From positions 4,526,001 through 4,590,000 of the forward strand of contig NC_087074.1 in assembly GCF_026151205.1 (NCBI RefSeq): a stretch of DNA of 64,000 bases. Direction: 5' to 3'. This stretch comes from Bolinopsis microptera. Its lineage: Eukaryota > Ctenophora > Tentaculata > Lobata > Bolinopsidae. This document shows positions 2,567-58,430 of the stretch, in pieces. The stretch's first letter is position 1. Every line of letters starts with the position of its first letter. The notes beneath the pieces were generated by a model, which worked only from the letters and a program-made list of their open reading frames with translations, was not told the origin of the DNA and ran no database searches. A program made the translations under genes and the position numbers.

Positions 2567-2743
2567 TTGCAGCGGTATACCACGCGCCATAGCTACTAGG
2601 GGGAGGGGTGTTGTTAAAATCACTGCTAACACCGCTCATTTGCAGCGGTATACCACGCGCCATAGCTACTAGGGGGAGGGGTGTTGTTAAAATCACTGCT
2701 AACACCGCTCATTTGCAGCGGTATACCACGCGCCATAGCTACT
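2567..2743. repeat. 73-bp minisatellite, left part (about 2.4 units)
   Basis: The string AGCGGTATACCACGCGCC recurs at 2571, 2644 and 2717, a 73-bp period. The array stops abruptly in CTACT at the T-tract that marks the LINE-A tail and resumes beyond the other end of LINE-A. Confidence 0.9.
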
Positions 2744-3090
2744 TTTTTTTTTATTTTTTTTTTATTGAAATCTTTCAAATCAGTCAATTACATACAAGTT
2801 TACACAATGAATTAGTTAAATATAATATTGTCCTCTAAGCATGGATTGTCAAAGTTGAAATTGTCTCGGACAAAATGTATGTAACCAAAGGACCTGAGGG
2901 TCACCAAAACACAGATATTGAGTGCAAATGCAGCTCCTGCACAAGCATGGGCCCTTATAAAATTGTAATAAGTTACTTTAAACAAAATCACACACCCATT
3001 CAATCAATTCATAAAATATTGTGCTGTGAGATGAAATTGAGAAATATGTGAATGCAGACAGCAAGAATAGATAATCTTGAATAAACTATT

Positions 3091-6000
3091 TTACGGATTT
3101 GTTTCTATTGAATAGTCAAGTTCAGAGTCCGAATCCACCGGGATAATTTTCCCCCACATGTAAGTGGAAAGTTTACTTTTAAAATCAGTGATACTCTCTA
3201 TCTCACGGATATCTAGAGGAATGTGATTCCACTTAGTGTGGGTCCTATAGAAGAAATTCTTGGCAAAAGCGTTGGAGCTTGCTCGAGGTGAGATAGAGCT
3301 TACAAAACATAGAGAGTCCATGTGACTATTTCTGAGCCTTGAGTGGCCTTGAAATGGTTGCAAATATGAGGGTAAAGTGACAGGTATATGTTGCTTCACA
3401 ATTTTAAAGAAGAAGATGAGATCCAAGAAGTCAAAGCGGTCTTCAATCGGCATAATCTTCAGCTGTCTGCATTTTTGAATGTATGTGGATGATGGATAAC
3501 TCATATACTCCTCGTGAAGAATCCACTTAATAGCACGCTTTTGGAGGCCCTCCAGCTTGCTTATCTGGGATTTTGTGACTGGTCTCCATATAACCGAGCA
3601 ATGCTCAAATAGGCTCCTCACTAAAGTGAGATACAGTACTCTACGACGATTTACGTCTTGGACAAAATAACAATTTCTTCTCGCCATGCCTAATTTTTGG
3701 TTTGCCTTAGAAAGGACTTTGGAGCACTGATCTTTCCAATCGAGATTTGATGTCACAATTACACCCAGATCCTTTTCATGATCAACATAGTCAAGTGTGA
3801 TTCTTCCCATGGAGTATACAAAGTTAAAGAGTGGTAGGACACTAAGGAGGGAAACTGTTTCGGATATCCTTCCTGCGACGGTGAGGACCTTACATTTGTC
3901 GGGATGAAATCTCATTTTATTAGAAAGTGACCAGTCATGGAGATAATCAATGTCCTTCTGCAGTCGCAGGATATCAGACTCCGAAACAATCTTACGCCAA
4001 ATTTTAGTATCATCGGCATACAGTGACAGTTGTGTGCCTGGTGAAATCCCCACTGATATATCATCAATGAACATAATGAACAGCAATGGTCCCAAAATTG
4101 ACCCTTGAGGTACACCAGACTGGGCGTTTCTCATAGAAGAAAACTTGCCACTTATCAAGACCTGTTGTTGCCTGTCTCTTAGATAATCAGTGATGAATTT
4201 CAGTAGCCTCCCATCAATACCAAATTTGCTCTTTAGCTTAAATAATATAAGATCATGGTTAACCGAGTCAAATGCTTTGGCAAAATCAAAGTAGACTACA
4301 TCTGTTCTCATATTTTCATTCAGTGAGAGCGCTAGGCTGTCGCACAGTCCTACAAGATTAGTTGCACAAGATCTCTCAGCTCGGAAACCATGCTGTTTGT
4401 CATTGATCATGCCATTAGTAAGTGCCAATAACTCATCTCTTATTATGCGTTCAAGAACTTTTGTGATTAAGCATGTAAGAGAAATTGGCCTATAATTTGA
4501 AACCTCATGTTTATCCCCTTTCTTGAATATTGGTACAATGTGCCCCAGTTTCCACTCCCTTGGTAGTGTCCCAATGTTGTAGCATGAATGAAAAAGTATT
4601 GATATAGGGTATGCGAGCCCAACCGCACAGTTTTTCAAAAGTTTCCCATGGATACCATCAGGTCCATAAGCTTTATTAGCATTAATATTGGAAATGATTT
4701 TGCGAACCCTTCTGTGGTCAAATTCAATATCAAAGCGCCAATCATTAGAGTAATCTATATCTATGTCATAAGTTGATGCCTCAGAGAACTGCTCGAAGAA
4801 AAAGTCATTAAATAGGTTGGCCTGGTCTTCAGGGCAGTTGCGGACAGTGCCTTTGTGGCTTACAAACTCAGGGATCCGCTGACTAGCTGTCTTCGATTTG
4901 ACATAGGACCAAAATTTTTTTGTTATTAAAGCACTATCATCAGATTCATTTAATGTTTCCCTCATTTTTTGAGCAACCACATTTTTGAAATTTTTCCTAG
5001 CAAGGGAGAATGCAATTTCAGCTCTATCACTTTTATGCCTTTCTTTATGTAATCTCACTTTCTTACGCCATGCATCATAACACTCCGAGTCAAACCATGG
5101 ATCTTGGCCATCAGTCTTGACAGAGCATTTTTTAACAAATTTATCTGTGACATTGAAAAGTTTGTCCTTAAATTTTTTCCATCCAATTTCAGGTTCTGTG
5201 CCATTGAGCAATGCATCCCAATTCGTGTGTCGGAGTTCATGGTTTAGCCTCTCCCAGTTCACAGTCTTAAAGTTATAGCACATACGCCTGACTGGCTTCT
5301 TCCTACCAACTTTAACGTTGATCTTAAAATTGATGGGGAAGTGGTCAGACTTGCAAGCACTATCTCTCTCACCTACCATTAGGTCATTAATATTTGACAC
5401 AGAGTTTGTGAGCAATAGGTCAAGTGTTTTGCCTTTGCAGTGGGTAGGTGTTAGCACACATTGTTGAAGGCCTAGATCAACAAAAGATTCAACAAAAGAT
5501 TGCTCAATAGGACAGGAGCTGGCCAGGGTAGACCAGGAAACTCCGGTCAGGTTAAAATCTCCTAGTATGAAGACTTTACTCAGTCCTCTTCTTCTGAGAA
5601 GAGTTTTCAAAGACTCAACAATTTTTTCACGATTTGCGGAGCCCAGTGTACCAACACGATAACATGTGCATACAACAAACTTAATTCCAGTGGAGGTCTT
5701 AAATTCCACAGCAAGAATTTCTGCACCATACTTGAGACGAACTCCCTTTGAAGTTAGATCAAGGTCTGCTCTCACTGCAATCATGACCCCTCCACCATTC
5801 CTCCTAAACCGGGTTGGATTAGAAGGATCTGGTGGATGAGTTTTCTTCGATCTATCAGAGCGAAATATCTTATATCTGTCAGGGTGCAGAAATTCACTAT
5901 CAGCAATAGAACTCTTAAACCAGGTTTCGTTAAGTATTGCAATATCTATCTTAGCCTCATTAAGATAAGTCGACACTTCAAGACATTTAGTGGTATCAAT

Positions 6001-6621
6001 CATTGGATGGGCATTGTTCAGTTCACCAAAAGGGATGAGACCTTGAACATTCTGAAAGTAAACATTCAATTTATTACCATTCCCAACTCTAACACCTATG
6101 GGAGACGGCCCTGGGTTTACAATTCCAGGGTTTACTAAAACTATCAAAAAACCATTCATCAAAAACAACCAAATTATGCATCCCGTGAGAATATTGCCGG
6201 TTCTACCAGTAAATATGCAATTTAAGTTCTTATGGATTGAAATCTGGCAAAATCTATATAAACCATCGAAACTGTAATTATTCCTCAGATAATACATATT
6301 TGCTAAATATAAAAAGAAATAAACTGTAAAGCATCGGCACAAGTTAGGAACTGGGTATGTTGGTACAAAGGCTCGGCAATCATAAGTGACCCTAGAAAAA
6401 GCCAACCCACTTACCCCGACATATGTGATAGTGATTAGCGAAAAGTGACATATGAATATAACATAAAAAATATAAAATAATAAGCGAGAATCAATGCAGC
6501 TGTCTAAATAATCAAAAATACTACCTGTACCACGTCTACGGTTCTGATGTTTGATGGATTTTGCAAAAGAATTTCCACTAAACACTCCAACTCTAAATCT
6601 GTATGTTACTAAATCGATCAT
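3091..6621 (-). CDS. LINE-A ORF2: AP endonuclease plus reverse transcriptase
   Basis: 1176 codons, ATG at 6621. After about 185 residues with a hydrophobic stretch comes an exonuclease-endonuclease-phosphatase domain: NVYFQNVQGL, then ILNETWF, GGGVMIAVR, ILGDFNL and the C-terminal SDHFPI, which are the usual Asn, Glu, Asp and His positions. The reverse transcriptase follows: GPDGIHGKLL, NYRPISLT, DFAKAFDSVNH, SGVPQGSILGPLLF and the catalytic box YADD at about residues 868-871. A thumb and CR1-type tail complete the protein. No RNase H domain is seen. It nicks target DNA and primes cDNA synthesis from the element RNA. No internal stop interrupts it, so it may still be coding-competent. Confidence 0.93.
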   Translation of the reverse strand: MIDLVTYRFRVGVFSGNSFAKSIKHQNRRRGTGSIFDYLDSCIDSRLLFYIFYVIFICHFSLITITYVGVSGLAFSRVTYDCRAFVPTYPVPNLCRCFTVYFFLYLANMYYLRNNYSFDGLYRFCQISIHKNLNCIFTGRTGNILTGCIIWLFLMNGFLIVLVNPGIVNPGPSPIGVRVGNGNKLNVYFQNVQGLIPFGELNNAHPMIDTTKCLEVSTYLNEAKIDIAILNETWFKSSIADSEFLHPDRYKIFRSDRSKKTHPPDPSNPTRFRRNGGGVMIAVRADLDLTSKGVRLKYGAEILAVEFKTSTGIKFVVCTCYRVGTLGSANREKIVESLKTLLRRRGLSKVFILGDFNLTGVSWSTLASSCPIEQSFVESFVDLGLQQCVLTPTHCKGKTLDLLLTNSVSNINDLMVGERDSACKSDHFPINFKINVKVGRKKPVRRMCYNFKTVNWERLNHELRHTNWDALLNGTEPEIGWKKFKDKLFNVTDKFVKKCSVKTDGQDPWFDSECYDAWRKKVRLHKERHKSDRAEIAFSLARKNFKNVVAQKMRETLNESDDSALITKKFWSYVKSKTASQRIPEFVSHKGTVRNCPEDQANLFNDFFFEQFSEASTYDIDIDYSNDWRFDIEFDHRRVRKIISNINANKAYGPDGIHGKLLKNCAVGLAYPISILFHSCYNIGTLPREWKLGHIVPIFKKGDKHEVSNYRPISLTCLITKVLERIIRDELLALTNGMINDKQHGFRAERSCATNLVGLCDSLALSLNENMRTDVVYFDFAKAFDSVNHDLILFKLKSKFGIDGRLLKFITDYLRDRQQQVLISGKFSSMRNAQSGVPQGSILGPLLFIMFIDDISVGISPGTQLSLYADDTKIWRKIVSESDILRLQKDIDYLHDWSLSNKMRFHPDKCKVLTVAGRISETVSLLSVLPLFNFVYSMGRITLDYVDHEKDLGVIVTSNLDWKDQCSKVLSKANQKLGMARRNCYFVQDVNRRRVLYLTLVRSLFEHCSVIWRPVTKSQISKLEGLQKRAIKWILHEEYMSYPSSTYIQKCRQLKIMPIEDRFDFLDLIFFFKIVKQHIPVTLPSYLQPFQGHSRLRNSHMDSLCFVSSISPRASSNAFAKNFFYRTHTKWNHIPLDIREIESITDFKSKLSTYMWGKIIPVDSDSELDYSIETNP

Positions 6622-6703
6622 GGTGTTTTACAGGTGAGTATACTTGCCAGACTACAACTGCATATCATTAGCTTAACAAGGTTCAGAGGACAGCACAAAA
6701 GAA

Positions 6704-8077
6704 CTACTGATAGATATAAGGATTAAAATATCTACTGTGGATGGCACGAATATAAAATCTGGCCAACACACCCATACCTTTCTGAGGATTGGGGTGAATG
6801 CCTTTGTTCTCAAATAAGGGATCAAATCTCTTAACAGGCTCACTTAGAGCTCTCTTAAACTTTGTAAAGGGATAAAACACATCCATGAAAAAGAACCTCC
6901 TAAATACACACTCATTGTATAAAATCCTATTAAAATCCATTACCCTCTTGTTAGTTAATTTATCGTTATCATTCTGTAAAGGTAATGGCAATAGCGATTG
7001 AACATATACCTTACAGTTGGGAAATAATAGGCCTATCTTACCAAAAAGTTGCTTTACTGGTCCCCTCAAAATACCAATTTTATCCCCCACACGCCTAATA
7101 TCGTTTGTGCCTACGCTGATCAGAAGCTTCTCAACGTGGACATCAGGATGTGCCGTGCAGTAGTCCTCCAACTGTTTCTGGACTTTGTCCATTTTTGCTC
7201 CGCCTTCTGCAACATTTACGACTGTGACTTTCCCTTTTCCCAGCTTTGCGGAGTCCAATCTTTGAGCATAAGAGTCTCCAGCAACCAACGTGACTCTTTG
7301 CGCAGGTACTTGGGCTTCGGTGCCAGAAGCTGGTGTACTAGTCTCTGTGCTGATATTCTGAGAGCTAACTTGGCCACCAGATTTCACAATAGCTCGAAAT
7401 GACAGGGAGTATCTTACTTGCTCCGATTTCTTTGGAGGCTCTCCCTTTGTGGCCGGCTCTGCTCGCACAGCATGCCTCAGATTCTGCTGTGTCCCAGGCC
7501 GCATTACAACAAGACTGTTGTTCTTCATCCTTATCGTCTTGACACAATTAGGTTTCCCAGTTGTGCCCTCGTAAAACTCAAGCGTCCGTTCACATCCCAG
7601 TGAGAAAGAGCAAATCGATTTCTCCTGGTCCATTAGTTTCTCACCGTCATTGTGTATTGAAGTACTCGCTTGGTTGTTTCCATACTTGATGACCAGACAT
7701 GAGTCCAGAGGTCCAGTTATCTCCGTACTCGAGTTTACAAGACTCAGGAGTCTTTTGATATTAGGGAAACCACTGATATCCTGTGGTGGGTGCACTGGAT
7801 TTGTGTCAGTGTAAATATAGGGTGCATCCTGTGAGCACAACCAAGCTGTTGTTGCCTTGTGTCTTCCCTCGGTGTTTAGTTTCTGCAGGGACTCACATTC
7901 AACCCATACCGCATCACAGAGAACCTCATCCTCGCAGAAGTCCTCTATATGTAACACAAAATTGTCCACCTTTCCCTCACGCTTTGGCAGCTCGTTTTGA
8001 ACAGAGTTAAGGATATGACGTAGATCCTCAACTGAGGCAGCTTTGACATAGTCGAAAATCTCTTGAAGGTTTATCAT
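6704..8077 (-). CDS. LINE-A ORF1: AlkB-like dioxygenase fused to SGNH/GDSL hydrolase
   Basis: 457 residues if started at the ATG at 8077 (MINLQEIFDYV); the frame is open a little further upstream. Residues about 115-232 look like an AlkB-type 2OG-Fe(II) dioxygenase: SIHNDGE gives the metal-binding His-x-Asp (His142, Asp144), LRHAV the second metal His (His202), and RYSLSFR the paired arginines that bind 2-oxoglutarate (Arg222, Arg228). Residues about 263-457 form an SGNH/GDSL hydrolase: LVAGDSYAQ (catalytic Ser block), ISVGTND (Asn block) and GIHPNPQKG (Asp-His block). Esterase ORF1 proteins are known in CR1-type LINEs; the AlkB domain is the odd part. AlkB enzymes demethylate alkylated nucleic acid bases, so a role in protecting element RNA or cDNA can be proposed but is inference. 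ORF2 starts 83 bp downstream. Confidence 0.85.
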   Translation of the reverse strand: MINLQEIFDYVKAASVEDLRHILNSVQNELPKREGKVDNFVLHIEDFCEDEVLCDAVWVECESLQKLNTEGRHKATTAWLCSQDAPYIYTDTNPVHPPQDISGFPNIKRLLSLVNSSTEITGPLDSCLVIKYGNNQASTSIHNDGEKLMDQEKSICSFSLGCERTLEFYEGTTGKPNCVKTIRMKNNSLVVMRPGTQQNLRHAVRAEPATKGEPPKKSEQVRYSLSFRAIVKSGGQVSSQNISTETSTPASGTEAQVPAQRVTLVAGDSYAQRLDSAKLGKGKVTVVNVAEGGAKMDKVQKQLEDYCTAHPDVHVEKLLISVGTNDIRRVGDKIGILRGPVKQLFGKIGLLFPNCKVYVQSLLPLPLQNDNDKLTNKRVMDFNRILYNECVFRRFFFMDVFYPFTKFKRALSEPVKRFDPLFENKGIHPNPQKGMGVLARFYIRAIHSRYFNPYIYQ

Positions 8078-8524
8078 TGTTGTCAGAGATTGTCGAGTCT
8101 GGCAGCAAAGTTTGCCAGGGAACCATCCGTAACACCTCAGAGTAGGCAACCTCCCACAACACTAAACACGACCTGGAAGGAAAATGGCACGAGAAAATGT
8201 GAAATGAAACTGCTGGTCGGGAGTAAAGTTAACTTTGCCAGGAAAATATAGCTAGAGTAAGGATAAGAGGGGCAATATCAGAGATGTAACAATTCACATT
8301 CAAAATAAGCTATCAATGAGAAAGAAGTAAAAGAGAAACTTACATCGTGTTTAAGGTGTTGTTGCCCAGTGCAAGCACTGGGCGAGAGGAGCCTAACTCA
8401 GGAGGCGAACTTCAGGAACCCCAGCGCACCCGCATACCAGGAGATCGGCTGTACTTCCTAGCCCGTCATGCCATTGTACATGCCTAAATTTATTTGTTAT
8501 ATAGTAGTGTTGTAAGTATTAAAA

Positions 8525-8640
8525 CTAGGGGAGGATGTTGTTAAAATCACTGCTAACACCGCTCATTTGCAGCGGTATACCACGCGCCATAGCTACTAGG
8601 GGGAGGGGTGTTGTTAAAATCACTGCTAACACCGCTCAAG
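8525..8640. repeat. 73-bp minisatellite, right part
   Basis: About 1.6 units of the 73-bp repeat seen at 2567-2743, in the same orientation and phase, ending ACACCGCTC at 8637. It is the other half of the array split by LINE-A. Confidence 0.88.
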
Positions 8641-9259
8641 GTATTACATCCAGTTAAAACCAAAGGATCAATGCCCATTTGACCAAATGTTGAGGAATAA
8701 ATGGATATTGCCCCCCCCCCCCCCCCCCTTGATATGACGAGCTTCCACTTGATAATTGAAACGTAATTTAACAAGAAGACTACGTGCTTGTAAAAAATTA
8801 TTTGATATGAAATTTGATGAAAATATTAATAAATTAAATAATAAATTAGTATTCAAACGTCAAACCATTGAAACCGTACAGTCGCATAAATCTAAAACAA
8901 ATTTGAATTATGTACTTTTTGATAAACCGTGTGCAGTGCCCTTTCCAGAGGGTTTTTTTAAAAGAATTCTTTAACGTTACTATTTTCTATCTATTACTGT
9001 TTGTATTATAATTTTGAGTAAACATTAATCGAGTAAACCGCTCGATTCCCAATCATGTAAAAATAAAAACGCTGTTTTAAAACAACTTTACGTCGACAAG
9101 TACAACAAATAATTACCTTAGGACTTAGATTAATACAAGTTAATCTAAAAGTTAATACACAATTACATTGCCCGTTGAGTTGTTGAAAGGCTACTTAACA
9201 CTACACAATGCACGCTAACTGAAATTCTATCCCATACTGGTATAAACTATAAATGGTTT
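8641..9259. other. Gene-free AT-rich stretch with a poly-C run
   Basis: An 18-base C run at about 8711-8728 is the only striking feature. A 72-codon plus-strand frame at 8756-8974 is Lys- and Asn-rich and has no recognisable motif. No gene is called here. Confidence 0.5.
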
Positions 9260-10095
9260 AACTGCAAGATGGTACACACTTTGTATCAACTAACTGCAAG
9301 ATGGTACACACTTTGTTTCAGCTAACTACAAGATGGTACACACGTTGTTTCAACTAACTACAAGATGGTACACACGTTGTTTTAACTAACTGCAAGATGG
9401 TACACACTTTGTTTCAGCTAACTACAAGATGGTACACACTTTGTTTCAACTAACTGCAAGATGGTACACACTTTGTTTCAACTAACTGCAAGATGGTACA
9501 CACTTTGTTTCAACTAACTGCAAGATGGTACACACGTTGTTTCAACTAACTGCAAGATGGTACACACTTTGTTTCAACTAACTGCAAAATGGTACACACT
9601 TTGTTTAAACTAACTGCAAGATGGTACACACTTTGTTTAAACTAACTGCAAGATGGTACACACTTTGTTTCAACTAACTGCAAGATGGTACACGCTTTGT
9701 TTAAACTAACTGCAAGATGGTACACACTTTGTTTCAACTAACTGCAAGATGATACACACTTTGTTTCAACTAACTGCAAGATGGTACACACTTCGTTTCA
9801 ACTAACTGCAAGATGGTACACACTTTGTTTCAACTAACTGCAAGATGGTACACACGTTGTTTTAACTAACTGCAAGATGGTACACACTTTGTTTCAGCTA
9901 ACTACAAGATGGTACACACTTTGTTTCAACTAACTGCAAGATGGTACACACTTTGTTTCAACTAACTGCAAGATGGTACACACTTTGTTTCAACTAACTG
10001 CAAGATGGTACACGCTTTGTTTAAACTAACTGCAAGATGGTACACACTTTGTTTCAACTAACTGCAAGATGGTACACACATTGCTTCAACTAACA
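9260..10095. repeat. 32-bp minisatellite (about 26 units) in the UBE2T 3' region
   Basis: The unit contains CTGCAAGATGGTACACACTT followed by TGTTTCAACTAA, with period 32. Variants alternate (ACACTTTG or ACACGTTG; CAACT, AAACT or AGCT), and blocks of variants repeat, pointing to segmental amplification. It begins about 20 bp beyond the UBE2T stop codon, so it probably forms most of the 3' UTR or its flank. Confidence 0.92.
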
Positions 10096-23500: not shown

Positions 23501-26500
23501 AGTAACTTGCTCTACCTGCAGGGGGGGGGGGGGGGGTCAGAGCAGCAATTCGGTAATGTAGCTACGCACAGTAGTAACTTGCTCTACCTGCAGGGGTCAG
23601 AGCGGCAATTAGGTAATGTAGCTACGCACAGTAGTAACTTGCTCTACCTGCAGGGGTCAGAGCGGCAATTCGGTAATGTAGCTACGCACAGTAGTAACTT
23701 GCTCTACCTGCAGGGGTCAGAGCGGCAATTAGGTAATGTAGCTACGCACGGTAGTAACTTGCTCTACCTGCAGGGGTCAGACCGGCAATTCAGTAATGTA
23801 GCTACGCACGGTTAAGGCACGGTTAAGGCACGGTTAGGGCAGGATGTGAAATCTAGGAGATGTTAACTTAATTTTAAGAGCATGGTTACTTGAAGAGATC
23901 GTTAAACGACGCAGGGCTCTTGCTTTAGAATTAGAATATTTATATCGCAATGTAAAATTTACAGATCGTCACATTCAGAAATATAACCTATGTTAACCGT
24001 GCCTTAAGTGACCGTGCCTCAACCGTGCCTTATGTAACCTTTGTGCCTTAACTTTATTACCGAATTGCCGTGAGAGCTGAGGGCCAAGACACAGCATGTG
24101 GTTCTTTAATGGATATTCTCGACTTTTTAGCCTGATTGTTTGCGTTCAATCGACAACCATGTCAACTAGTTGCCACTGTATAATGCTGAAATGCGGCAGA
24201 ATACATCACTACATACATAATCAACATGTCTTTATAAATACCTAAGTTCTGATAGTACTCGTCCAGTTCACTGCACCACTCCCTGAATTCCTTTTGTTCG
24301 GCCAGCTCTAACTTCTGTTTTGACATCGTGTAACTCCATCTGGTTGCAGAGTACACTCGTCAGTTTAAAAATGTCATGAATAGTTCCTTGAATAACAAAA
24401 GCTAAATCACCCCGACACAATCATTTACCATAAATTTCCACTCAATATTAATCAGAGTCCATTAACCGCACATAGAACAAACGGGGTCCAGACTCAATGG
24501 CGTGAGGCTCTAAGGCGGAGTTCTGAAAAACAGGAAACGTGGTCGTGAAAAAACAGGACTCGTGGTCTCACGCGACGGCCCTAAAGTCCCGGACCAGAAC
24601 AAACAATTTGACCCACTTTCCACGTTTAGGCATGCCCAAATCCAGAATCTCCATCGCGTAATCCTCGACCTTGGTAACCAGGAGAGATTCATCTAAAGCA
24701 GGTAATGGTTTCTTGCTGAGCTTTATATTCTGATCCACCTCCTCTTTAGACTCCTTACCGAACACCAGGCAGTACTTGTTAAGTCGCTCATGTGCGGTAC
24801 CTGGGAAGAAGTTGTTGTATAACCATATACTGATTACTGAGGTGTGTATTTGCAAGTGTCTCGTTATCTAATCGTTATTTAATGTTGCCATGGGGTGTCA
24901 AGTCCCCATTCATCTCGCAGCCCACTAGTTTTACTGCCTCTTAATTCGCCCGACATCTAGAAGACCTTTTTGTGTTTCATTCGGATTTTTAAGCTGCTAT
25001 ATATTTGATCTTAAGGGTTGTAAAGATATTTGGGCGCTACAACTTTGATGCAATTATTCGTATGAATGCTAATTTGTATGGTTTATGGTTATTCACCTAG
25101 AAATGAAGGCCGTCAGGCCTAAATTTTCAGATGGATAAATGTCATATTCCCCATCAATTTGGGTAGAGTTGGACGGTATTAGACAGCTTGCATTGTATTA
25201 CTATGCGAACATATTCCATTAATCCAGGACTGAACACCAACGACCACCTACTGAACCCTATGTCACCTTTGAGAGATCCCCAGTAACCATCCACTTCTCT
25301 AAATTAGTCTAGACTCGGGTAAAGAAAACATCTGCCAGCGTTAGCAATGTATTATTATGCGAATATATTCCATTAAATTCTGGACTAAACACCAACGACC
25401 ACTATGTCACCTTATATCACTGTTTCTGACATGGTGATAATCGTACTGAAGCAAATATGCATCTAAGCATAATGTCAAATACAATTGTCACCATACTCGA
25501 GTGAAAAATGCGTCGTTTTCCTGCTATATCATTCCCTAGTTATACCATTATCAACGTAAACCTTTTTCAATAATTCTAAATCTACACTATTTTAAGATAG
25601 CAGAATAAACACCGGAGATGGCTGAATCAACCCTGGAGATGGTTATATCAACCCCGGTTACAAACTCAACTACGAATGGCTACAAAGAGACCAGCTACAC
25701 CCTCTCCAAGAGTTCTAAAGACAATGAGAAGTGTATAAAAGAGGATCACAAACCGCCAGGCAGAAGAGCAGATATTGATGTGATCATGATAGTCCTAACC
25801 TTCGGTGTCTACTTGTTCCATATCTGTAAAATGTACACGCCATCTGCATCGCCAGCAGAGGGACGGTATCATGAAGTCCGTTACCAAGGCTTGATAACGA
25901 CTTCTACGTCTGAAGATCCTTTCACCCCCATCTACCTCGGAGTCATCGTACATTGGTTCGTTGGGTTCATGCAAGCTTGGCACATGCCCATGTTCTTCTA
26001 TCTGTCCGGGCAGAACACTTACTCTGCTCTGTTCCGGAGATCGGAGACTCAGTTCAGGGACGAGAGAGTACACCGGCTCCTGGTTCCAACTCTGTTTCTG
26101 TGTGCGGTCACTGAGCTCCCTTTTACCCTTGCTTACTTTGCTCGTCGCGAGGTTCCTCTAGTCGAGGAATCATATTGGGAGTACGTGAAAGGCTTCTATA
26201 TACATCCACACTTTCAACAGTCATGGTTTCTTTTGTACCTCTTCATCTACGCCCAAGTATCCACCTTCTGGTTCAGAACGTTTCATCCAGCTCACAACAC
26301 TGATGAGACCACCACACTCTCATTTTGTGGCTCCAACTCCTGCTGCTGCACAGTGAAACCATTTAGCCGGCTCACTCAGTACTTCTGCTGCCTGAATTTC
26401 ATCCTCAAGCCAGCTTTAACTCCTAGAGAATTCTTTTCTGCAGTAAAGTGGTATCTGGGTGGACCAATCAGGCTTGCTCTCATACCAGGGATAGTGATAG

Positions 26501-29500
26501 GAGTTGTGGAGACAGGCCACCGTCTTTACGATGTTTACTTCCCAAACTATCCTATTTTATCTTACTTGGTCATCTACTTGATGGGTTACGCTACAGCAGC
26601 GGCGGAGAGAGAGATCAGACAACGTAGCAAGGTTTGGTCCTGGAGTTGCTTCTTGGTTGGAACAGTTCTTTGTTCAGTGTTTGGAGTCGGCATGGTTATT
26701 TACGGTAAAGAAATTGAGAAAAAACAGGCGTCCACAAATTTAATAAGCATGGTCATCTATGGTGCATACACTGATAAAACTCGTTTTATAATAAGTTTAA
26801 TAGGTGGATTCACGAGAGGTTTAGGACAGTGGCTGTTCATCATCGGGTCTATAGCATTAGCGAGAGAAAAGTTCACTACCCCTCGAGATTGGCACCAGAA
26901 ATGCAGGGTTATGGCCTTGCCTTTCTATCTGATTCATCAACAACTTTTAGTTGGGATCGGCTCAGGAGCTCTTTGGGTCCCTTACCTCCGATCTTTTCCG
27001 GTAATGCTTATCATGACCTCCGTCCTTATTATAACAATCACCTACTTTATCACCAAGTCCGGATCTCTACGCTACTTTTTTGGTCTGCCTACTCTTAAAG
27101 GATCTTGGTTGCCAGGGAAACCCCTGAGAGGGTTCGTGCCAGTATTGGTGCTTACCGGGGTGGTGCTGCTACAAATGACTTTGGCACGGACTTTGTAAAC
27201 ATGGATGTTTGGTTTTCATTTATGACAGTATAACAAATCAGCATGTTTATGGACCTTATTGGAAGCTTTGAAGTGTTGGGAAGTGTTATGCGATTAGCGT
27301 TATTGTGTGTAGTTTTTTCGAGTATCTTCTTGTTATTTTTTGGTTTGCTTTGGTTTTAACAAGTTGGTTTTTATCAGTGTGTCAATAAAATCTCTGCATA
27401 GTTTCATATTGTGCTAACTTGGAATGGAGTGTGAGGTCACCAACTTGTAGCGATCAATTGTCTCAATCACCTCCCATACATATTTTACACATATAATATA
27501 GTATTAGTTGAAAAGCATGAGATAAGCGGAAAACAAACAGACGAGTTGACTTCAATTTCCTAAGGGATCGTCGAGTGAGATCGTCGATTTCAAAACTTTT
27601 AGGAAAAATGTTAAATTCTCAGACATTTTATCAGAGTACGGATATTTCAAAATTATTCAGACAAAAATATCGGGTAATCGAATAACATACTGACAAGTGG
27701 TTGTTTCTTAAAAGCCAGAATTCCATCTCCTGTTCAGATAATTACCCAGTTAACCGAGAAATATCTTTGAAAGTGTCATTGAACAAAGAAGTCATTATCA
27801 CTTCGCGCGATTTCATTAAAAAATGTGAATGTGCAAGTAGAATTGCTCTGTGTAATTAAGTAGAATTGCTCTGTGCAGGAAACAATGTCACCAGGCCAGG
27901 TCACGGTTTTTCTACCCATGTTTATAATACCACATTAATTGCTATTGAGTGCTACGTGCGATAATGCGCGGTGAGGCCGAGCTCGGCACAAGATTAAGCC
28001 AAGCGTCCGGTATTCGGCAAGCTGCGAAAACTGCACCTAAGACCCATTCGAAATTTAACCTGCTGTATTATATGCTGTACACTAAATAATTTTAGACGAT
28101 ATGGAATCTGTAATTCTATCTGACCACAAGAATCATTGTTTAATGACTAGTGCAGCCGTTATCATAATCACTAATCGGTGCCCAAGCTCAGTGGCCTTGT
28201 GTTTGATAATTCTCAGCGGAATCACCTTTTTTGCAAAACGTTTCCCAGTCAATGTTGCCTCTAGTCGTCTCCCTACTGCATCATTACTCAATACTCAGTA
28301 CTCACTATACTATTATCAACGCTATAACTTTGATGCAATGATGCAATTATGCATATACATTATTATCGTGTTTTACATTTGCTTTGTTGTAATGTTGAAT
28401 GTAACTTACAGTCCCAACCCCAATGTTTCTGAGTGGTCTAAGTTCGTATTGAAACATATACATTATAGTTATACATTGTGAGATATAAAATACTGTCTAG
28501 TTACTGTCTACCACTGCTTGTTTGATGTTTATGCCGTGCAATTCTACTGTTTTAATATGTGTAGTTATATACGCCTTAGCAGGGTCAGTGGCTTACAGTA
28601 CTAAGCTGCAGTGTTGGATTTTGCTTGTTTAATCCTTCACTCAGCAATTAGTTTGTTAAAGTATTCATTAGGTTTAAATTGTTTTCAGGTGCGTACATTT
28701 TGACTCCAGGGCAATTTCACCGTGACATTTAAAAAAAAGTTCAAACGAAGGTCATGCCTAGTTCGATGATTATTTTTCAGCTTACGCTATTTATTCGTCC
28801 ACATTTAACCTTTTTAAAAGTTGTGTCAAAAGTTCAGACGCCTTTCATGATTAATTTCTGAGCACCCCTGTGACAGACGCGACAAAAATATTACACTTTT
28901 TGTGGGTCTTCAGTTGAGCCCAAATCTATCTCAAAAATTTATCTATTGTCTCTAATCTGGACATTCAGGGATAGAAGAAGGTTTAGGGACTTCTAAGATA
29001 CCATTTTCTTGGAAATTGCTCCATTTTTGTTCGCATGGCGTTATTTCTAATTGTGACAGACGTGACTGTGACAGAATTTTTTCCCGATTTTTCTAAATTT
29101 TCCACTTGACACTTTTATTATATTGTTATAAGTAATCCTCAGTATATATCTATGCCAATGTTCGTCCATTTTGGGCTCACCCGAAGGCATCAGTGTAAGG
29201 GTAGTGATGATTTCTCTTGAACAAATATCTAACTCTGGTGAAACTTTCATCACGGTTCAATCCATCATACTATTAAGACCGTTTCTCCAAAGCTTTATTG
29301 CTTTTGTATGTAAAATGTGGACGATATTGAATTTTTACTTCAAAAAATATGGGAAAATAGGGTTAAATCTAATTTGTGTTATTTTTACTGTTACGTAAAG
29401 GAGTCTTTATCAAATACAATAGCAAAAACGCTGTAAATTTGTTAACTGAATTGCATATGATGTTATTTAGCACTCTAGTCAAAATAGTCAGAACTTCAAT

Positions 29501-32500
29501 TAGTCTTACTAGTACAGGGAAATCCGTCTGAAAAAAAAAACGATCTGCCGACACACAAAGCTTACAAAGGATTTTTGACGTTTTTGAGTCCTAATAGATG
29601 TCTTTTATGGCTGACCAACTTTTCCAAACTTTTCCACGTGTCTCAAAGCCACTTTTTGCCACTTTACCACTTTTTACCACCTTTCTTGTTTGTCAAATAT
29701 CTTTAGTTGTGAACATCGTAGAAAGTTGCAGATTAATCGAAGGTGTTCATATTATCAGGAAGAAAAACTTTTGTAGAGACAATTTTTGCCTCAGATAATC
29801 AATTAATTGGATAATTATCAATTAGCTAATTAGCAAAATTTAAAATTTTTTATTGGCTCAAAAGTGATCAAATTGCATTAAACGCGGAGAAAAATGCTTT
29901 TAAAAAACTTCGTGAATTTTTGTTTTCAAGAATACTAAAATCACTTACATTTGTAGTTGGAGTTCAGTAAATCTCGGCAGATTTTAGTAATCAGGAATTA
30001 CTAAATCGAAATAAATAAAAGGGCTGAAACTGAAAAACGTTAACCACAGGATATTAGAGTTTCATAATGATTACAGTACATCCTTATCAATTTTTACCGA
30101 AACTCCACCAAAGGCACATTTGAGATCGAACCGATAGCCTGCTGTACTACGATAATCGCATAATATTATGTAATAAATAAAACCTCTCTGAGTCTGTACT
30201 ACTATACCGTCAGTCGTGCTAATCTGAACCGGCCTACCTGGATTACCATCTACCTCTTCTTTTCCTCAATAAGTAGACCGAGTTGTGCAAGAAATGTGAT
30301 TTATCATAGCTCATAATAATTCTAACGGCCAGGTAGCGCAGTTGGTTAGCCAGCTTTGCAATCGTGAGGTTGCGGGTTCAAATCCCACTGCCTGCCTGGT
30401 CGTGGGGTGAGTGTCGTTGACATTCAGCTAAGGATCGTGAGTGGTCTATGCAGCCCCCCGGTCTACTCAGCCGAATACTCGAGAAATCAGGTGTGAGGGT
30501 TAAATGAGGAGCTGCACATTGCAGCAAAGTCTCGGGCGAAGAAAGTATGGTATACACTACCTTAACCGTCACTGGCTAAAAACAAATCCTTCGGCTTCCT
30601 GTAATTGGCTGGTTGCACTTGTGTAACACTGTGGCTGTTGGAATACTCCGAAGTAAAATAAGTGTCTAGATTTAAAAAAAAAAAAAATTAAATCACCAAC
30701 CAAATGCTATCGCATTTGGTGGGTGTGTAAATAATTCCAATCATTTTGAGCCAATAAAAAAATTTTAAATTTTTGCTAATTAGCTTAAACACGTCTACAG
30801 AACCTACACGCACTTCCATTTTAAATCATATTTTCTCGTACAAACGATAATCAGAAGTAAAAAAATAAACTCTGTAATTCGCTTCCTAATATCACCCTGG
30901 CTAGTGAGTAAAATGTTTTCGACCTCGTACACCATAACATTTCCTTAGAAATACGTGATCAATAACAATATTCCTTCACCCGGTCATGTAATTGTGTTGT
31001 GATTAGATTCCTCGACCTCGTGGCTCGTACATTATAAGAGTAAGACCTCGTACTGATATATATTTCACTCTTACTGGCAGAAAGACCGGAGAGGTGATCT
31101 AGCAAAACTTTAAGAAAATTTTAAGACTGTCGCCCATAGTTTATTCTCAGAATTGTAAAAGTTTCGCCCACTGAAATATCATTAATAACGTATCATTTCG
31201 ACATAATATGGAACAATGGTAAAAATAGCCAAAATTGAGCCTTACGGCCATATACCTACAAAATTATGCATAACTCAGTCATTTTCTATCCACATTTTTG
31301 ATTTGAAGACATTTTTTTGTTCAGGACGGTCTCAGCTTCAACAAAATGCATTTTTGGATTTTTTGGAAACTGTTTCAAAAAAATATGACAGACGTGACAA
31401 GTTGGGAGTAGTTAGGACCTCCCTTTTAAAATTTGTTCCTTAAAAGATATGATCCTAATAATTTTGATGAAACTCCCTTGCCTTCAAAAGAGATAGGTTA
31501 CATTGGTTTTTTGAATATAAATGGCATAATGTGGATCTGAATAAACTTGTTCGCTTAATTTTGTGACAGACACAACACCATCTTTGTTGAGATTTTTCAT
31601 AAAAAGTATATGAGCAGCAGTCTAACTATTGTACCCATGCTTCAGTGTATGGAATTTCATAGACAAACATTGCTGCATATCCAAACTATGAGCATCTGAA
31701 AATTTAGATAATTTTATTCATTTTTGAGTCTTGCAATTTTGAATGAGAAAAATCGCAATTTAACGCAATATCAAACAAAAAACTTTGATTGACCAGTAAG
31801 GTTAAGAGTCTAAAAAACATATTTTCACCAAAATTAGGTGCCTGTTTAAACATTTTTCATTGTCACCAAGAGGTACCTTAACGTGGAATTGCTCTCCATT
31901 CTATCCTGTAGTATAATTTCGAATACAATTGTGACCATACTCGAGTGGAAAAATACGTCATTTCCCTGCTATACCATTCCCTAGTATTATAGTTATACCA
32001 TTATCAACGTAAAAATTCTTCGATAATTCTAAAACTACACTATTTTGAGATGACAGAATCACCCCCGGCCCCTGTAGATGGTTGAATCGATCCCAGTTAC
32101 GAATCCAATTTTGAATGGCTACAGAGACCAGCTACATCCTCTCCAAGAGTTCTAAAGACGATGAAAGGTGTCTAGAAGAGGATCACAAACCGTCAGGCAG
32201 AAGAGCAGATATTGATGTGATCATGATAGTCCTAACTTATGGTATTTACTTGTTCCATATCTGTAAAATGTACACGCCATCTTCGTCGCCAGCAGAGGAA
32301 CGGTATCATGAAGTCCGTTACCCAGGCTTGATAACGACTTCTACGTCTGATGATCCTTTCACCCCCATCTACCTCGGAGTCATCGTACATTGGTTCGTTG
32401 GGTTCATGCAAGCTTGGAACATGCCCATGTTCTTCTATCTGTCCGGGCAGAACACTTACTCTGCTCTGTTCCGAAGATCGGAGACTCAGTTCAGGGGCGA

Positions 32501-35500
32501 GAGAGTACACCGGCTCCTGGTTCCAAGTCTGTTTCTTTGTGCGGTTACTGAGCTTCCTCTCACCCTTGCTTACTTTGCTCGTCGCGAGGTTCCTCTAGTC
32601 GAGGAATCATATTGGGAGTACGTGAAAGGCTTCTATATACATCCACACTTTCAACAGTCATGGTTTCTTTTGTACCTCTTCATCTACGCCCAAGTATTCA
32701 CCTTCTGGTTCAGAACGTTTCATCCAGCTCACAACACTGATGAGACCACCACACTCTCATTTTGTGGCTCCACATCCTGCTGCTGCACAGTGAAACCATT
32801 TAGCCGGCTCACTCAGTACTTCTGCTGCCTGAATTTCATCCTCAAGCCAGCTTTAACTCCTAGAGAATTCGCTTCTGCAGTAAAGTGGTATCTGGGTGGA
32901 CCAATCAGGCTTGCTCTCATACCAGGGATAGTGATAGGAGTTGTAGAGACAGGTCACCGTCTTTACGATGTTTACTTCCCAAACTATCCTATTTTATCTT
33001 ACTTGGTCATCTACTTGATGGGTTACGCTACAGCAGCGGCGGAGAGAGAGATCAGACAACGTAGCAAGTTTTGGTCCTGGAGTTGCTTCTTGGTTGGAAC
33101 AGTTCTTTGTTCAGTGTTTGGAGTCGGCATGGTTATTTACGGTAAAGAAATTGAGAAAAAACAGGCGTCCACAAATTTAATAAGCATGGTCATCTATGGT
33201 GCATACACTGATAAAACTCGTTTTATAATAAGTTTAATAGGTGGATTCACGAGAGGTTTAGGACAGTGGCTGTTCATCATCGGGTCTATAGCATTAGCGA
33301 GAGAAAAGTTCACTACCCCTCGAGATTGGCACCAGAAATGCAGGGTTATGGCCTTGCCTTTCTATCTGATTCATCAACAACTTTTAGTTGGGATCGGCTC
33401 AGGAGCTCTTTGGGTCCCTTACCTCCGATCTTTTCCGGTAATGCTTATCATGACCTCCGTCCTTATTATAACAATCACCTACTTTATCACCAAGTCCGGA
33501 TCTCTACGCTACTTTTTTGGTCTGCCTACTCTTAAAGGATCTTGGTTGCCAGGGAAACCCCTGAGAGGGTTCGTGCCAGTATTGGTGCTTACCGGGGTGG
33601 TGCTGCTACAAATGACTTTGGCACGGACTTTGTAAACATGGATGTTTGGTTTTCATTTATGACAGTATAACAAATCAGCATGTTTATGGACCTTATTGGA
33701 AGCTTTGAAGTGTTGGGCAGTGTTATGCGATTAGCGTTATTGTGTGTAGTTTTTTCGAGTATCTTCTTGTTATTTTTTGGTTTGCTTTGGTTTTAACAAG
33801 TTGGTTTTTATCAGTGTGTCAATAAAATCTCTGCATAGTTTCATATTGTGCTAACTTGGAATGGAGTGTGAGGTCACCAACTTGTAGCGATCAATTGTCT
33901 CAATCACCTCCCATACATATTTTACACATATAATATAGTATTAGTTGAAAAGCATGAGATAAGCGGAAAACAAACAGACGAGTTGACTTCAATTTCCTAA
34001 GGGATCGTCGAGTGAGATCGTCGATTTCAAAACTTTTAGGAAAAATGTTAAATTCTCAGACATTTTATCAGAGTACGGATATTTCAAAATTATTCAGACA
34101 AAAATATCGGGTAATCGAATAACATACTGACAAGTGGTTGTTTCTTAAAAGCCAGAATTCCATCTCCTGTTCAGATAATTACCCAGTTAACCGAGAAATA
34201 TCTTTGAAAGTGTCATTGAACAAAGAAGTCATTATCACTTCGCGGGATCTCATTAAAAAGTGTGAATGTGCATTGTGCAAGTAGAATTGCTCTGTGTAAA
34301 GTAGAATTGCTCTGTGCAGGAAACAAGGTCACCAGGCCAGGTCACGGTTTTTCTACCCATGTTTATAATACCACATTAATTGCTATTGAGTGCTACGTGC
34401 GATAATGCGCGGTGAGGCCGAGCTCGGCACAAGATTAAGCCAAGCGTCCGGTATTCGGCAAGCTGCGAAAACTGCACCTAAGACCCATTCGAAATTTAAC
34501 CTGCTGTATTATATGCTGTACACTAAATAATTTTAGACGATATGGAATTTGTAATTCTATCTGACCGCAAGAATCATTGTTTCATGACTAGTGCAGCCGT
34601 TATCATAATCACTAATCAGTGCCCAAGCTCAGTGGCCTTGTGTTTGATAATTCTCAGCGGAATCACCTTTTTTGCAAAACGTTTCCCAGTCAATGTTGCC
34701 TCTAGTCGTCTCCCTACTGCATCATTACTGAATACTCAGTACTCACTATACTATTATCAACGCTATAACTTTGATGCAATGATGCAATTATGAATATACA
34801 TTATTATCGTGTTTTACATTTGCTTTGTTGTTATGTTGAATGTAACTTACAGCCCCAACCCCAATGTTTCTGAGTGGTCTAAGTTCGTATTGAAACATAT
34901 ACATTATAGTTATACATTGTGAGATATAAAATACTGTCTAGTTACTGTCTACCACTGCTTGTTTGATGTTTATGCCGTGCAATTCTACTGTTTTAATATG
35001 TGTAGTTATATACGCCTTAGCAGGGTCAGTGGCTTACAGTACTAAGCTACAGTGTTGGATTTTGCTTGTTTAATCCTTCACTCAGCGATTAGTTTGTTAA
35101 AGTATTCATTAGGTTTAAATTGTTTTCAGGTGCGTACATTTTGACTCCAGGGCAATTTCACCGTGACATTTTAAAAAAAGTTCAAACGAAGGTCATGCCT
35201 AGTTCGATGATTATTTTTCAGCTTACGCTATTTATTCGTCCACATTTAACCTTTTTAAAAGTTGTGTCAAAAGTTCAGACGCCTTTCATGATTAATTTCT
35301 GAGCACCCCTGTGACAGACGCGACAAAAATATTACACTTTTTGTGGGTCTTCAGTTGAGCCCAAATCTATCTCAAAAATTTATCTATTGTCTCTAATCTG
35401 GACATTCAGGGATAGAAGAAGGTTTAGGGACTTCTAAGATACCATTTTCTTGGAAATTGCTCCATTTTTGTTCGCATGGCGTTATTTCTATTTGTGACAG

Positions 35501-38500
35501 ACGTGACTGTGACAGAATTTTTTCCCGATTTTTCTAAATTTTCCACTTGACACTTTTATTATATTGTTATAAGTAATCCTCAGTATATATCTATGCCAAT
35601 GTTCGTCCATTTTGGGCTCACCCGAAGGCATCAGTGTAAGGGTAGTGATGATTTCTCTTGAACAAATATCTAACTCTGGTGAAACTTTCATCACGGTTCA
35701 ATCCATCATACTATTAAGACCGTTTCTCCAAAGCTTTATTGCTTTTGTATGTAAAATGTGGACGATATTGAATTTTTACTTCAAAAAATATGGGAAAATA
35801 GGGTTAAATCTAATTTGTGTTATTTTTACTGTTAAAGGAGTCTTTATCAAATACAATAGCAAAAACGCTGTAAATTTGTTAACTGAATTGCATATGATGT
35901 TATTTAGCACTCTAGTCAAAATAGTCAGAACTTCAATTAGTCTTACTAGTACAGGGAAATCCGTCTGAAAAAAAAACGATCTGCCGACACACAAAGCTTA
36001 CAAAGGATTTTTGACGTTTTTGAGTCCTAATAGATGTCTTTTATGGCTGACCAACTTTTCCAAACTTTTCCACGTGTCTCAAAGCCACTTTTTGCCACTT
36101 TACCACTTTTTACCACCTTTCTTGTTTGTCAAATATCTTTAGTTGTGAACATCGTAGAAAGTTGCAGATTAATCGAAGGTGTTCATATTATCAGGAAGAA
36201 AAACTTTTGTAGAGACAATTTTTGCCTCAGATAATCAATTAATTGGATAATTATCAATTAGCTAATTAGCAAAATTTAAAATTTTTTATTGGCTCAAAAG
36301 TGATCAAATTGCATTAAACGCGGAGAAAAATGCTTTTAAAAAACTTCGTGAATTTTTGTTTTCAAGAATACTAAAATCACTTACATTTGTACTTGTAGTT
36401 GGAGTTCAGTAAATCTCGGCAGATTTTAGGAATTACTAAATCGAAATAAATAAAAGGACTGAAACTGAAAAACGTTAACCACAGGATATTAGAGTTTCAT
36501 AATGATTACAGTACATCCTTATCAATTTTTACCGAAACTCCACCAAAGGCACATTTGAGATCGAACCGATAGCCTGCTGTACTACGATAATCGCATAATA
36601 TTATGTAATAAATAAAACCTCTCTGAGTCTGTACTACTATACCGTCAGTCGTGCTAATCTGAACCGGCCTACCTGGCCTGGATTACCATCTACCTCTTCT
36701 TTTCCTCAATAAGTAGACCGAGTTGTGCAAGAAATGTGATTTATCATAGCTCATAATAATTAAATCACCAACCAAATGCTATCGCATTTGGTGGGTGTGT
36801 AAATAATTCCAATCATTTTGAGCCAATAAAAAAATTTCAAATTTTTGCTAATTAGCTTAAACACGTCTACAGAACCTACACGCACTTCCATTTTAAATCA
36901 TATTTTCTCGTACAAACGATAGTCAAAAGTAAAAAAATAAACTCTGTAATTCGCTTCCTAATATCACCCTGGCTAGTGAGTAAAATGTTTTCGACCTCGT
37001 ACACCATAACATTTCCGTAGAAATACGTGATCAATAACAATATTCCTTCACCCGGTCATGTAATTGTGTTGTGATTAGATTCCTCGACCTCGTGGCTCGT
37101 ACATTATAAGAGTAAGACCTCGTACTGATATATATTTCACTCTTACTGGCAGAAAGACCGGAGAGGTGATCTAGCAAAACTTTAAGAAAATTTTAAGACT
37201 GTCGCCCATAGTTTATTCTCAGAATTGTAAAAGTTTCGCCCACTGAAATATCATTAATAACGTATCATTTCGACATAATATGGAACAATGGTAAAAATAG
37301 CCAAAATTGAGCCTTACGGCCATATACCTACAAAATTATGCATAACTCAGTCATTTTCTATCCACATTTTTGATTTGAAGACATTTTTTTGTTCAGGACG
37401 GTCTCAGCTTCAACAAAAATGCATTTTTGGATTTTTTGGAAACTGTTTCAAAAAAATATGACAGACGTGACAAGTTGGGAGTAGTTAGGACCTCCCTTTT
37501 AAAATTTGTTCCTTAAAAGATATGATCCTAATAATTTTGATGAAACTCCCTTGCCTTCAAAAGAGATAGGTTACATTGGTTTTTTGAATATAAATGGCAC
37601 AATATGGATCTGAATAAACTTGTTCGCTTAATTTTGTGACAGACACAACACCATCTTTGTTGAGATTTTTCATAAAAAGTATATGAGCAGCAGTCTAACT
37701 ATTGTACCCATGCTTCAGTGTATGGAATTTCATAGACAAACATTGCTGCATATCCAAACTATGGGCATCTGAAAATTTAGATAATTTTATTCATTTTTGA
37801 GTCTTGCAATTTTGAATGAGAAAAATTGCAATTTAACGCAATATCAAACAAAAAACTTTGATTGACCAGTAAGGTTAAGAGTCTAAAAAACATATTTTCA
37901 CCAAAATTAGGTGCCTGTTTAAACATTTTTCATTGTCACCAAGAGGTACCTTAACGTGGAATTGCTCTCCATTCTATCCTGTAGTATAATTTCGAATACA
38001 ATTGTGACCATACTCGAGTGGAAAAATACGTCATTTCCCTGCTATACCATTCCCTAGTATTATAGTTATACCATTATCAACGTAAAAATTCTTCGATAAT
38101 TCTAAAACTACACTATTTTGAGATGACAGAATCACCCCCGGCCCCTGTAGATGGTTGAATCGATCCCAGTTACGAATCCAATTTTGAATGGCTACAGAGA
38201 CCAGCTACATCCTCTCCAAGAGTTCTAAAGACGATGAAAGGTGTCTAGAAGAGGATCACAAACCGTCAGGCAGAAGAGCAGATATTGATGTGATCATGAT
38301 AGTCCTAACTTACGGTATTTACTTGTTCCATATCTGTAAAATGTACACGCCATCTTCGTCGCCAGCAGAGGAACGGTATCATGAAGTCCGTTACCCAGGC
38401 TTGATAACGACTTCTACGTCTGATGATCCTTTCACCCCCATCTACCTCGGAGTCATCGTACATTGGTTCGTTGGGTTCATGCAAGCTTGGAACATGCCCA

Positions 38501-58059: not shown

Positions 58060-58430
58060 CATGTTGGTCATTTTGGTCATACCTCAATAAATGTAATAGA
58101 TTTGTAGTGTTGTAATTAGTTTAAATTTGGATTCAGTTAAACAAAAATTTCAGTTAAACAAAAATTTCAATTTTATGCCATTTATTACAGAATAAACAAG
58201 TTTAAAATAAATCAATTTGATATTTAAAGGAATCCTAATTCAATGTGTAGTATGGTTGTCACTCTTTGGATAGATTAGACATAGGTTGACGGGGCAAAGG
58301 AGTGTGCGTGCTGTTTGCTATTGCTCACACCAAACGGCAACCTAGTAAAAGTTTTGTATGGACGTCTCAACAATGGAAATAGTCATACAATTAAGAAATT
58401 TACCAAATTCTTAATAATAATAATAATAAT
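58060..58430. other. AT-rich flank of LINE-B with a tail-like inverted match and TAA microsatellite
   Basis: CTCAATAAATGTAATAGATTTGTAG near 58084 (given here as two parts: CTCAATAAATG and TAATAGATTTGTAG) reappears inverted near 51300-51320, probably LINE 3' tails in opposite orientation. A (TAA)n microsatellite lies at 58411-58432. Confidence 0.5.

Follow-up and report, generated by a model that had tools for sequence, protein, structure and literature searches.

In a 64,000-nucleotide stretch of the Bolinopsis microptera genome (contig NC_087074.1, positions 4,526,001 to 4,590,000; hereafter the window), the first open reading frame (ORF1) of a long interspersed nuclear element (LINE), named here LINE-A, was confirmed to carry an AlkB-family domain, with a profile nearest to ALKBH3 and ALKBH2 and not to ALKBH5 or FTO, joined to an SGNH hydrolase domain. 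A preliminary description, made from the sequence alone, had identified the frame as an AlkB plus SGNH ORF1 of a LINE, and this was right, with both domains above their Pfam cut-offs and with an endonuclease-reverse transcriptase (EN-RT) ORF2 adjoining. The observation also proved larger than first noted, extending to a second LINE in the window, to hundreds of places in the genome and to a Helitron. A chance motif match was ruled out, as both scores exceeded the curated cut-offs and the domain pair recurs in one frame. With regard to function, the proposal that we favor, at somewhat less than an even chance, is that LINE-A ORF1 is an active AlkB-family dealkylase (predicted, and nearest to ALKBH2/3), built on an esterase-type ORF1, which would clear methyl blocks from RNA and cDNA.

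LINE-A (family F1) occupies positions 2743 to 8528 on the minus strand, with its 5′ end near 8528, since alignments to 11 other copies begin at 8482–8528, and with an A-rich 3′ tail reaching to approximately 2743, a 3′ end common to three other copies. The tail adjoins a 73-bp tandem repeat and the element sits inside that repeat, while three other copies show no clear target site duplication. Family F1 has 5′-truncated copies and the A-rich 3′ tail by which a LINE is recognized. In line with the first reading of one intact ORF1 frame upstream of an intact EN-RT ORF2, ORF1 (6704–8077, minus) runs over 457 amino acids (aa) from ATG to stop without an internal stop, and 82 nucleotides separate its stop from the start of the open ORF2 (3091–6621, minus; 1176 aa with a leader of about 185 aa). 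The latter comprises an endonuclease (5332–5976, minus; aa 216–430, the union of the PF14529 and PF03372 matches, with E-values of 7.9e-11 and 2.5e-6, respectively) and a reverse transcriptase (3880–4515, minus; aa 703–914; PF00078, E 3.3e-29) in which the YADD motif is present. By-eye comparison of the F1 copies in which the ORF2 match begins at residue 1 placed ORF1 sequence directly upstream in all 16, and 11 F1 copies show a median divergence of 2.8 per kb, which indicates that the family was active recently.

The AlkB-type 2-oxoglutarate (2OG)-Fe(II) dioxygenase domain spans positions 7394–7855 on the minus strand (aa 75–228) and matched PF13532 (2OG-FeII_Oxy_2) with an E-value of 4.3e-16 and a score of 60.1 bits, compared with the curated cut-off of 31.2; the profile search proposed in the preliminary description thus did not return the outcome of no AlkB hit. 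The HND, second histidine and RxxxxxR signatures reported there were also correctly placed. They correspond to the HxD of the Fe(II) site, H142 and D144 (7646–7654, minus), the second Fe(II) histidine, H202 (7472–7474, minus), and R222-x5-R228 (7394–7414, minus), which holds the 2OG-site arginine and a second arginine, and they are invariant in all rows aligned. Specifically, the columns of H142, D144, E146, H202, R222 and R228 do not vary among 14 transposon AlkBs, hand-picked as family representatives, nor against the 33 bacterial or viral-contig AlkB rows of alignment A6.

Structure prediction, which had likewise been suggested, gave a model whose fold matches ALKBH2, ALKBH3 and AlkB structures. 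Using the window ORF1 protein together with the same 33 rows as input, AlphaFold returned mean predicted local distance difference test scores (pLDDT) per 10-residue block of 81–94 over residues 101–210, 65 at 211–220 and 93 at 221–230. The best Foldseek matches of this predicted fold were ALKBH2, ALKBH3 and AlkB, with E-values of about 1e-11 and template-modelling scores by target of 0.56–0.74 (50 matches shown), so that the mostly confident region 101–230 is predicted to form a double-stranded beta-helix. For the whole ORF1 model, the mean pLDDT was 64.6 and the predicted template-modelling score 0.51, the SGNH half being poorly modelled; the alignment held no relatives for that part.

When a profile built from transposon sequences only was compared with solved structures, it matched ALKBH3 (1.6e-28), ALKBH2 (2e-20), AlkB (5.6e-10) and ALKBH8 (5e-5), as well as 5xeg, another 2OG-Fe oxygenase (1.8e-4), and neither ALKBH5 nor FTO was found among the 33 sequences at E ≤ 0.01. 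This ranking bears on the main rival to methyl-block removal, namely mark-erasing as an epigenetic counter-defense, in which AlkB would remove N6-methyladenine from the RNA (m6A) or the DNA (6mA) of the element against silencing or degradation by the host. 6mA occurs in ctenophores, and the residue following HxD varies among the 14 transposon AlkBs (7 Asp, 6 Asn and 1 Gly), which is in favor of such a role. Published systems point the same way: an ALKBH5-like ORF of an orchid Gypsy element demethylates m6A RNA in vitro (PMC9289625), in fungi, 11 lineages of DNA transposon, Helitrons among them, carry TET/JBP dioxygenases, which are read as a means of escaping silencing (PMC12730594), and mouse cells losing Alkbh1 gain 6mA on young L1 elements together with repressive marks (PMC4982230). 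However, the nearest relatives by profile are ALKBH3, ALKBH2 and AlkB, a 'DNA N6-methyl adenine demethylase' entry was matched only at 6e-4 and with host rows added to the profile, and the fungal work came upon no retrotransposon with TET/JBP (PMC12730594). We regard mark-erasing as unlikely, albeit worth serious consideration.

The second half of ORF1 carries the SGNH/GDSL hydrolase domain (6782–7276, minus; aa 268–432), which matched PF13472 (Lipase_GDSL_2) with an E-value of 5.3e-10 and 40.5 bits against a curated cut-off of 32.9, bearing out the earlier assignment of the GDS, GTN and IHPN blocks in the same frame to this fold. Profile A2 matched the structure 4c1b, an ORF1-encoded protein that we take to be the ZfL2-1 esterase, at 3.7e-15. 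In a 12-row alignment, the S, N and H of the SGNH blocks were invariant and the block-II G was present in at least 90% of the rows. As read off this alignment, the Asp located three residues before the catalytic His was present in 6 of 12 rows and not in the window copy (K-G-I-H), and the esterase activity of the F1 copy is uncertain for that reason. By analogy, the domain probably acts as proposed for other LINEs, in lipid or membrane contact, a role derived from ZfL2-1 (PMC3905857).

Genome-wide, the matches of the window ORF1 protein P0001 (96), PF13532 (151) and the AlkB of a Helitron (150) were merged into 323 places, including one SGNH-only row and three host-like loci. This corresponds to at least about 320 AlkB places, which is a lower bound because only the best candidates were scored. 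Among the loci examined, AlkB and SGNH shared a frame in 51 cases at 47 distinct places. Families read together with their ORF2 were F1 (window), F5 (L061), F6 (L062), F7 (L066), F8 (the second LINE in the window, LINE-B), F9 (L067), F10 (L064) and F11 (L065); where the surroundings were read, both domains stood together in the ORF1s of LINEs belonging to four ORF2 lineages. RT identity amounted to 54–73% within F1/F5/F6/F7 and to 23–36% between the four lineages. For F5, F6 and F7, which have no PF13532 match by Pfam, the AlkB call comes from alignment and from a hidden Markov model built from other families. The F10 ORF1 (L064:2853–4586, minus) joins a PHD-like finger to AlkB and SGNH, with scores below the cut-offs for PHD (20.4 bits against 24) and SGNH (18.4 against 23.6); its ORF2 likewise opens with a PHD-like finger, a match below the Pfam cut-off. 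In F11, the order is AlkB, a coiled-coil-like stretch and a weak SGNH-like end (Pfam E 0.04–0.06).

The module was also found in a class II element. In Helitron L063 (2723–9919; C12:2465580–2475500), SGNH, AlkB, Helitron_like_N and PIF1 helicase domains follow one another in a frame of at least 2399 aa, and the SGNH-AlkB order is the reverse of that in the LINE ORF1s. Rep (HUH) and Pif1 helicase, the combination that marks a Helitron, stand in one protein (PF14214, 3.6e-22; PF05970, 1.3e-11), and the SGNH match reached 29.5 bits, under the 32.9 cut-off. Other long frames (3226–3388 aa) on C9, C10, C12 and C3 have AlkB in common with L063, and further high-copy AlkB families have frames of about 537, 540, 630, 697 and 746 aa. 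That every esterase LINE carries AlkB was ruled out by L155, a LINE ORF1 with SGNH, without AlkB and with an RG-rich tail. Among the 150 SGNH places listed, 57 were more than 3 kb away from any AlkB or ORF1 place on the lists, a figure that is not a count of SGNH-only elements because the lists are cut short and some frame lengths match known AlkB families.

Such distribution is relevant to whether the element provides alkylation repair that is useful to the germ line and is tolerated for that. The nearest profiles are indeed those of direct-reversal repair enzymes, but the genome already has the host-like AlkB loci L031 and L032, which resemble ALKBH2 and ALKBH3 as judged by their motifs, and the high copy number in many unrelated elements suits element fitness better, which makes a service to the host very improbable.

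The ORF1 ends and charges that were read across the families concern another alternative, in which the AlkB fold is mainly a nucleic-acid-binding module of the ORF1 protein (ORF1p), replacing RNA recognition motif or basic regions, with catalysis being secondary. This would fit the lack of any structural RNA-binding domain in the esterase ORF1ps of Repbase (PMC3905857), the RG-rich tail of L155 not being seen in the seven AlkB ORF1s with ends read (F1, F5, F6, F7, F9, F10 and F11), and the basic character of F1 ORF1 overall (pI 8.8). Nevertheless, the F1 AlkB domain itself is weakly basic (+3), the F9 ORF1 is acidic (pI 5.8), and all 14 sequences keep the two Fe histidines, the Asp and the pair of arginines, although a protein that only binds should have lost some of these residues. 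We thus consider a primary binding role quite unlikely.

LINE-B provided a case of probable exchange of a whole ORF1. Its frameshifted ORF1 lies on the minus strand in a 5′ piece (57073–57948) with most of AlkB (PF13532, 1.6e-10) and a 3′ piece (56210–57076) with the AlkB end and SGNH (PF13532, 2.8e-4; PF13472, 5.8e-6 and 27.4 bits, under the 32.9 cut-off). The open ORF2 (53037–55772, minus; PF00078, 2.4e-39; a weak EN match of 17 bits) belongs to another lineage than that of LINE-A. Compared with L067 of family F9, the LINE-B ORF2 was 98% identical in protein, and alignment of the DNA (window 58071–53022) gave 97.9% identity from 56048 downstream and only about 70% in the ORF1 regions, with a sharp break near 56048, between the ORF1 stop (56207) and ORF2. 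Given near-identical ORF2s and this break, one AlkB-SGNH ORF1 was probably swapped for another on nearly the same ORF2. In addition, the 54 bp at 58072–58125 recur without a mismatch immediately before ORF1 in the F9 copies L034/L067 and L040, and the window ORF1 adjoining them is F8-like, perhaps reflecting a mosaic 5′ untranslated region (UTR); a target site is a less likely explanation for this match than a shared 5′ UTR. An RT-related fragment of another element lies by LINE-B (58527–59141, plus; zf-RVT, 21.5 bits, below cut-off), and a similar fragment (L067:5371–6201, plus, by eye) likewise stands next to a LINE-B-type copy.

We estimated the ratio of nonsynonymous to synonymous substitution rates (dN/dS) by NG86, per domain, in comparisons between families. 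AlkB values were 0.17 and 0.19 for F1 against F2 (bootstrap interval for 0.17: 0.10–0.29), 0.13 for F8 against F9, 0.05 in each of two F11 comparisons, and 0.17, 0.17, 0.23 and 0.23 in four Helitron comparisons. SGNH values were 0.09–0.10 for F1–F2, 0.12–0.14 for F11 and 0.15–0.26 for Helitrons. The linkers gave 0.43–0.51 for F1–F2 and 0.45–0.73 for the Helitron SGNH-AlkB linker, with 0.57–0.97 after AlkB; the middle part of F11 is also constrained, as its dN/dS was 0.22–0.24. Synonymous sites were saturated in more distant pairs and in the SGNH and linker parts of F8–F9, which yielded no value. Together with the invariant catalytic residues, the low AlkB dN/dS supports the prediction of a working enzyme. 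Some copies are broken (LINE-B in the window, and L010, L012, L013, L021, L028 and L029 by stops), as would be expected if a captured piece of host AlkB were carried along without function. Such a passenger was nonetheless ruled out by AlkB dN/dS well below 1 in four kinds of between-family comparison (F1–F2, F8–F9, F11 and Helitron), and the presence of AlkB in LINE lineages with RTs as distant as reported above also speaks against it, so that we hold it to be scarcely credible.

For the origin of the domain, a tree was computed in which the 14 transposon AlkBs stood alongside 16 from bacteria, 2 from viral contigs and 3 host-like ones, the bacterial rows having been chosen by likeness to the host rows. 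All 14 transposon AlkBs fell on one side of a branch with support of 97/94, recovered in 95% of the bootstrap trees; their branches are long, and that of F10 very long. This topology is compatible with a single capture, after which the domain was passed around between LINEs and Helitrons. No relatives in viral contigs were found with P0001 or with the SGNH profile A5, and the host-AlkB profile A4 matched four AlkBs in viral contigs. In a third host-like locus, L033 (C5:22265392–22268829), an AlkB frame of ALKBH3 type is followed, after about 0.7 kb and in the same orientation, by an SGNH frame; the locus is possibly a host gene or an old relic, and it is a candidate source of the AlkB-SGNH pair. 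Taken as a whole, AlkB-SGNH is probably a shared accessory module. A broader version of this idea, possible but doubtful in our view, is that of a portable module of class I LINEs and class II Helitrons, captured once and exchanged between the classes, which would directly reverse methylation of their obligatory single-stranded intermediates (RNA/cDNA and single-stranded DNA, respectively), be it as repair or as unmasking, and which has reached a very high copy number in one animal genome.

From the domains, the Fe(II)/2OG residues, the predicted fold, the low AlkB dN/dS in several families and the recurrence of the pair, we infer catalysis, substrate and place in the element cycle as follows. 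ORF1p would coat the LINE RNA in the ribonucleoprotein, to which the AlkB domain would add nucleic-acid binding, and this domain would oxidatively strip Watson-Crick-face methyls (m1A, m3C and relatives), originating from host marks or from alkylation damage, from the RNA template and the new cDNA. As such methyls stall reverse transcriptases, their removal would favor full-length copies. In Helitrons, the SGNH-AlkB pair would guard the single-stranded DNA intermediate. AlkB and ALKBH3 reverse m1A and 3meC in RNA and single-stranded DNA. In a sequencing method that employs an R2-type non-LTR RT, the enzyme is reportedly impeded by m1A, and treatment with AlkB takes away m1A and m3C, increases most 3′ tRNA halves and modestly alters the capture of intact tRNAs (PMC12140624).

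Several observations count against methyl-block removal by an ALKBH2/3-like enzyme. Firstly, the Gly after HxD is that of the window copy (HNDGE), in which the ALKBH2/ALKBH3-type Asp (HxDDE), a residue that has a role in these enzymes, is not present, and base choice may hence differ from that of ALKBH3. Secondly, the transposon AlkBs did not fall inside the host and bacterial AlkBs and showed no grouping with the host ALKBH2/3-like rows. Thirdly, two F2 copies gave an AlkB dN/dS of 0.76, with an interval of 0.2–3.1 and few changes. Furthermore, the SGNH-only ORF1 L155 resides in the same genome, and AlkB is therefore not required by every LINE here. Finally, the domain is tied no more to RNA than to DNA, and fungal DNA transposons without single-strand passage also carry TET/JBP dioxygenases, read as anti-silencing (PMC12730594).

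Elsewhere in the window, three very similar open frames lie in tandem on the plus strand, about 6 kb apart (25618–27198, 32115–33635 and 38188–39708); the first, to which the scan was confined, matches Acyl_transf_3, a membrane acyltransferase. A 26-copy array of a 32-bp repeat (9259–10094) stands between LINE-A and a gene that is presumably ubiquitin-conjugating-enzyme-like.

Comparison with known systems indicates that the ORF1 architecture is new, that the mobile elements carrying it are of known kinds, and that other classes of element offer related precedents. The transposon AlkBs resemble ALKBH3, ALKBH2 and Escherichia coli AlkB in the predicted fold, in the HxD...H...R-x5-R site, in the Glu after HxD(D) and in being best matched by their profiles and structures, and differ in the fusion to SGNH, in D/N/G after HxD and in a separate tree branch. 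The SGNH ORF1 upstream of EN-RT, together with the A2 match to 4c1b, is shared with the type IV (esterase) ORF1 of CR1/L2 LINEs such as zebrafish ZfL2-1. Unlike LINE-A ORF1, these esterase ORF1s combine a coiled coil with the esterase and lack a structural RNA-binding domain; they are known from CR1, RTE/RTEX and Penelope-like elements (PMC3905857), to which L2 is added elsewhere (PMC4120745). A word search of a survey of 448 Jockey-superfamily elements found neither AlkB nor oxygenase (PMC4120745). The orchid Ty3/Gypsy element with its paALKBH5-like ORF also represents a retrotransposon-encoded AlkB-family demethylase, in that case assayed in vitro, but it is a plant LTR element with a separate ORF of ALKBH5 type, and the part of the article consulted mentions no SGNH (PMC9289625). 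The fungal transposons similarly show a 2OG-Fe(II) dioxygenase that has spread over many lineages within a single genome, among them Helitrons, and has been transferred from one lineage to another; they differ in that the enzyme is TET/JBP and is carried by no retrotransposon there, the word AlkB does not occur in the article, and the sections consulted mention no SGNH partner (PMC12730594).

Plant flexiviruses, which have an AlkB domain in the viral replicase, are likewise mobile RNA replicators with such a domain, set in a replicase context that LINEs do not share. A search of open-access papers, judged mostly from listings and exclusive of subscription reviews, Repbase and preprints, brought up no LINE or Helitron described as carrying AlkB, which agrees with the preliminary statement that no established description of AlkB in LINE ORF1 was known.

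LINE ORF1 proteins are poorly understood, and a demethylase that, if the prediction holds, can be assayed would offer a handle on why ORF1s carry enzymes. The finding also raises the question of whether retrotransposition is limited by methylation or alkylation of RNA, and mobile elements may rid their own genetic material of methyl marks or damage. Given hundreds of places in one genome, transposons may inflate the numbers of AlkB/ALKBH genes counted in genomes of this kind. Together with fungal TET/JBP and orchid ALKBH5, our results suggest that dioxygenase capture is a recurrent strategy of mobile DNA, seen here in LINEs of an early-branching animal.

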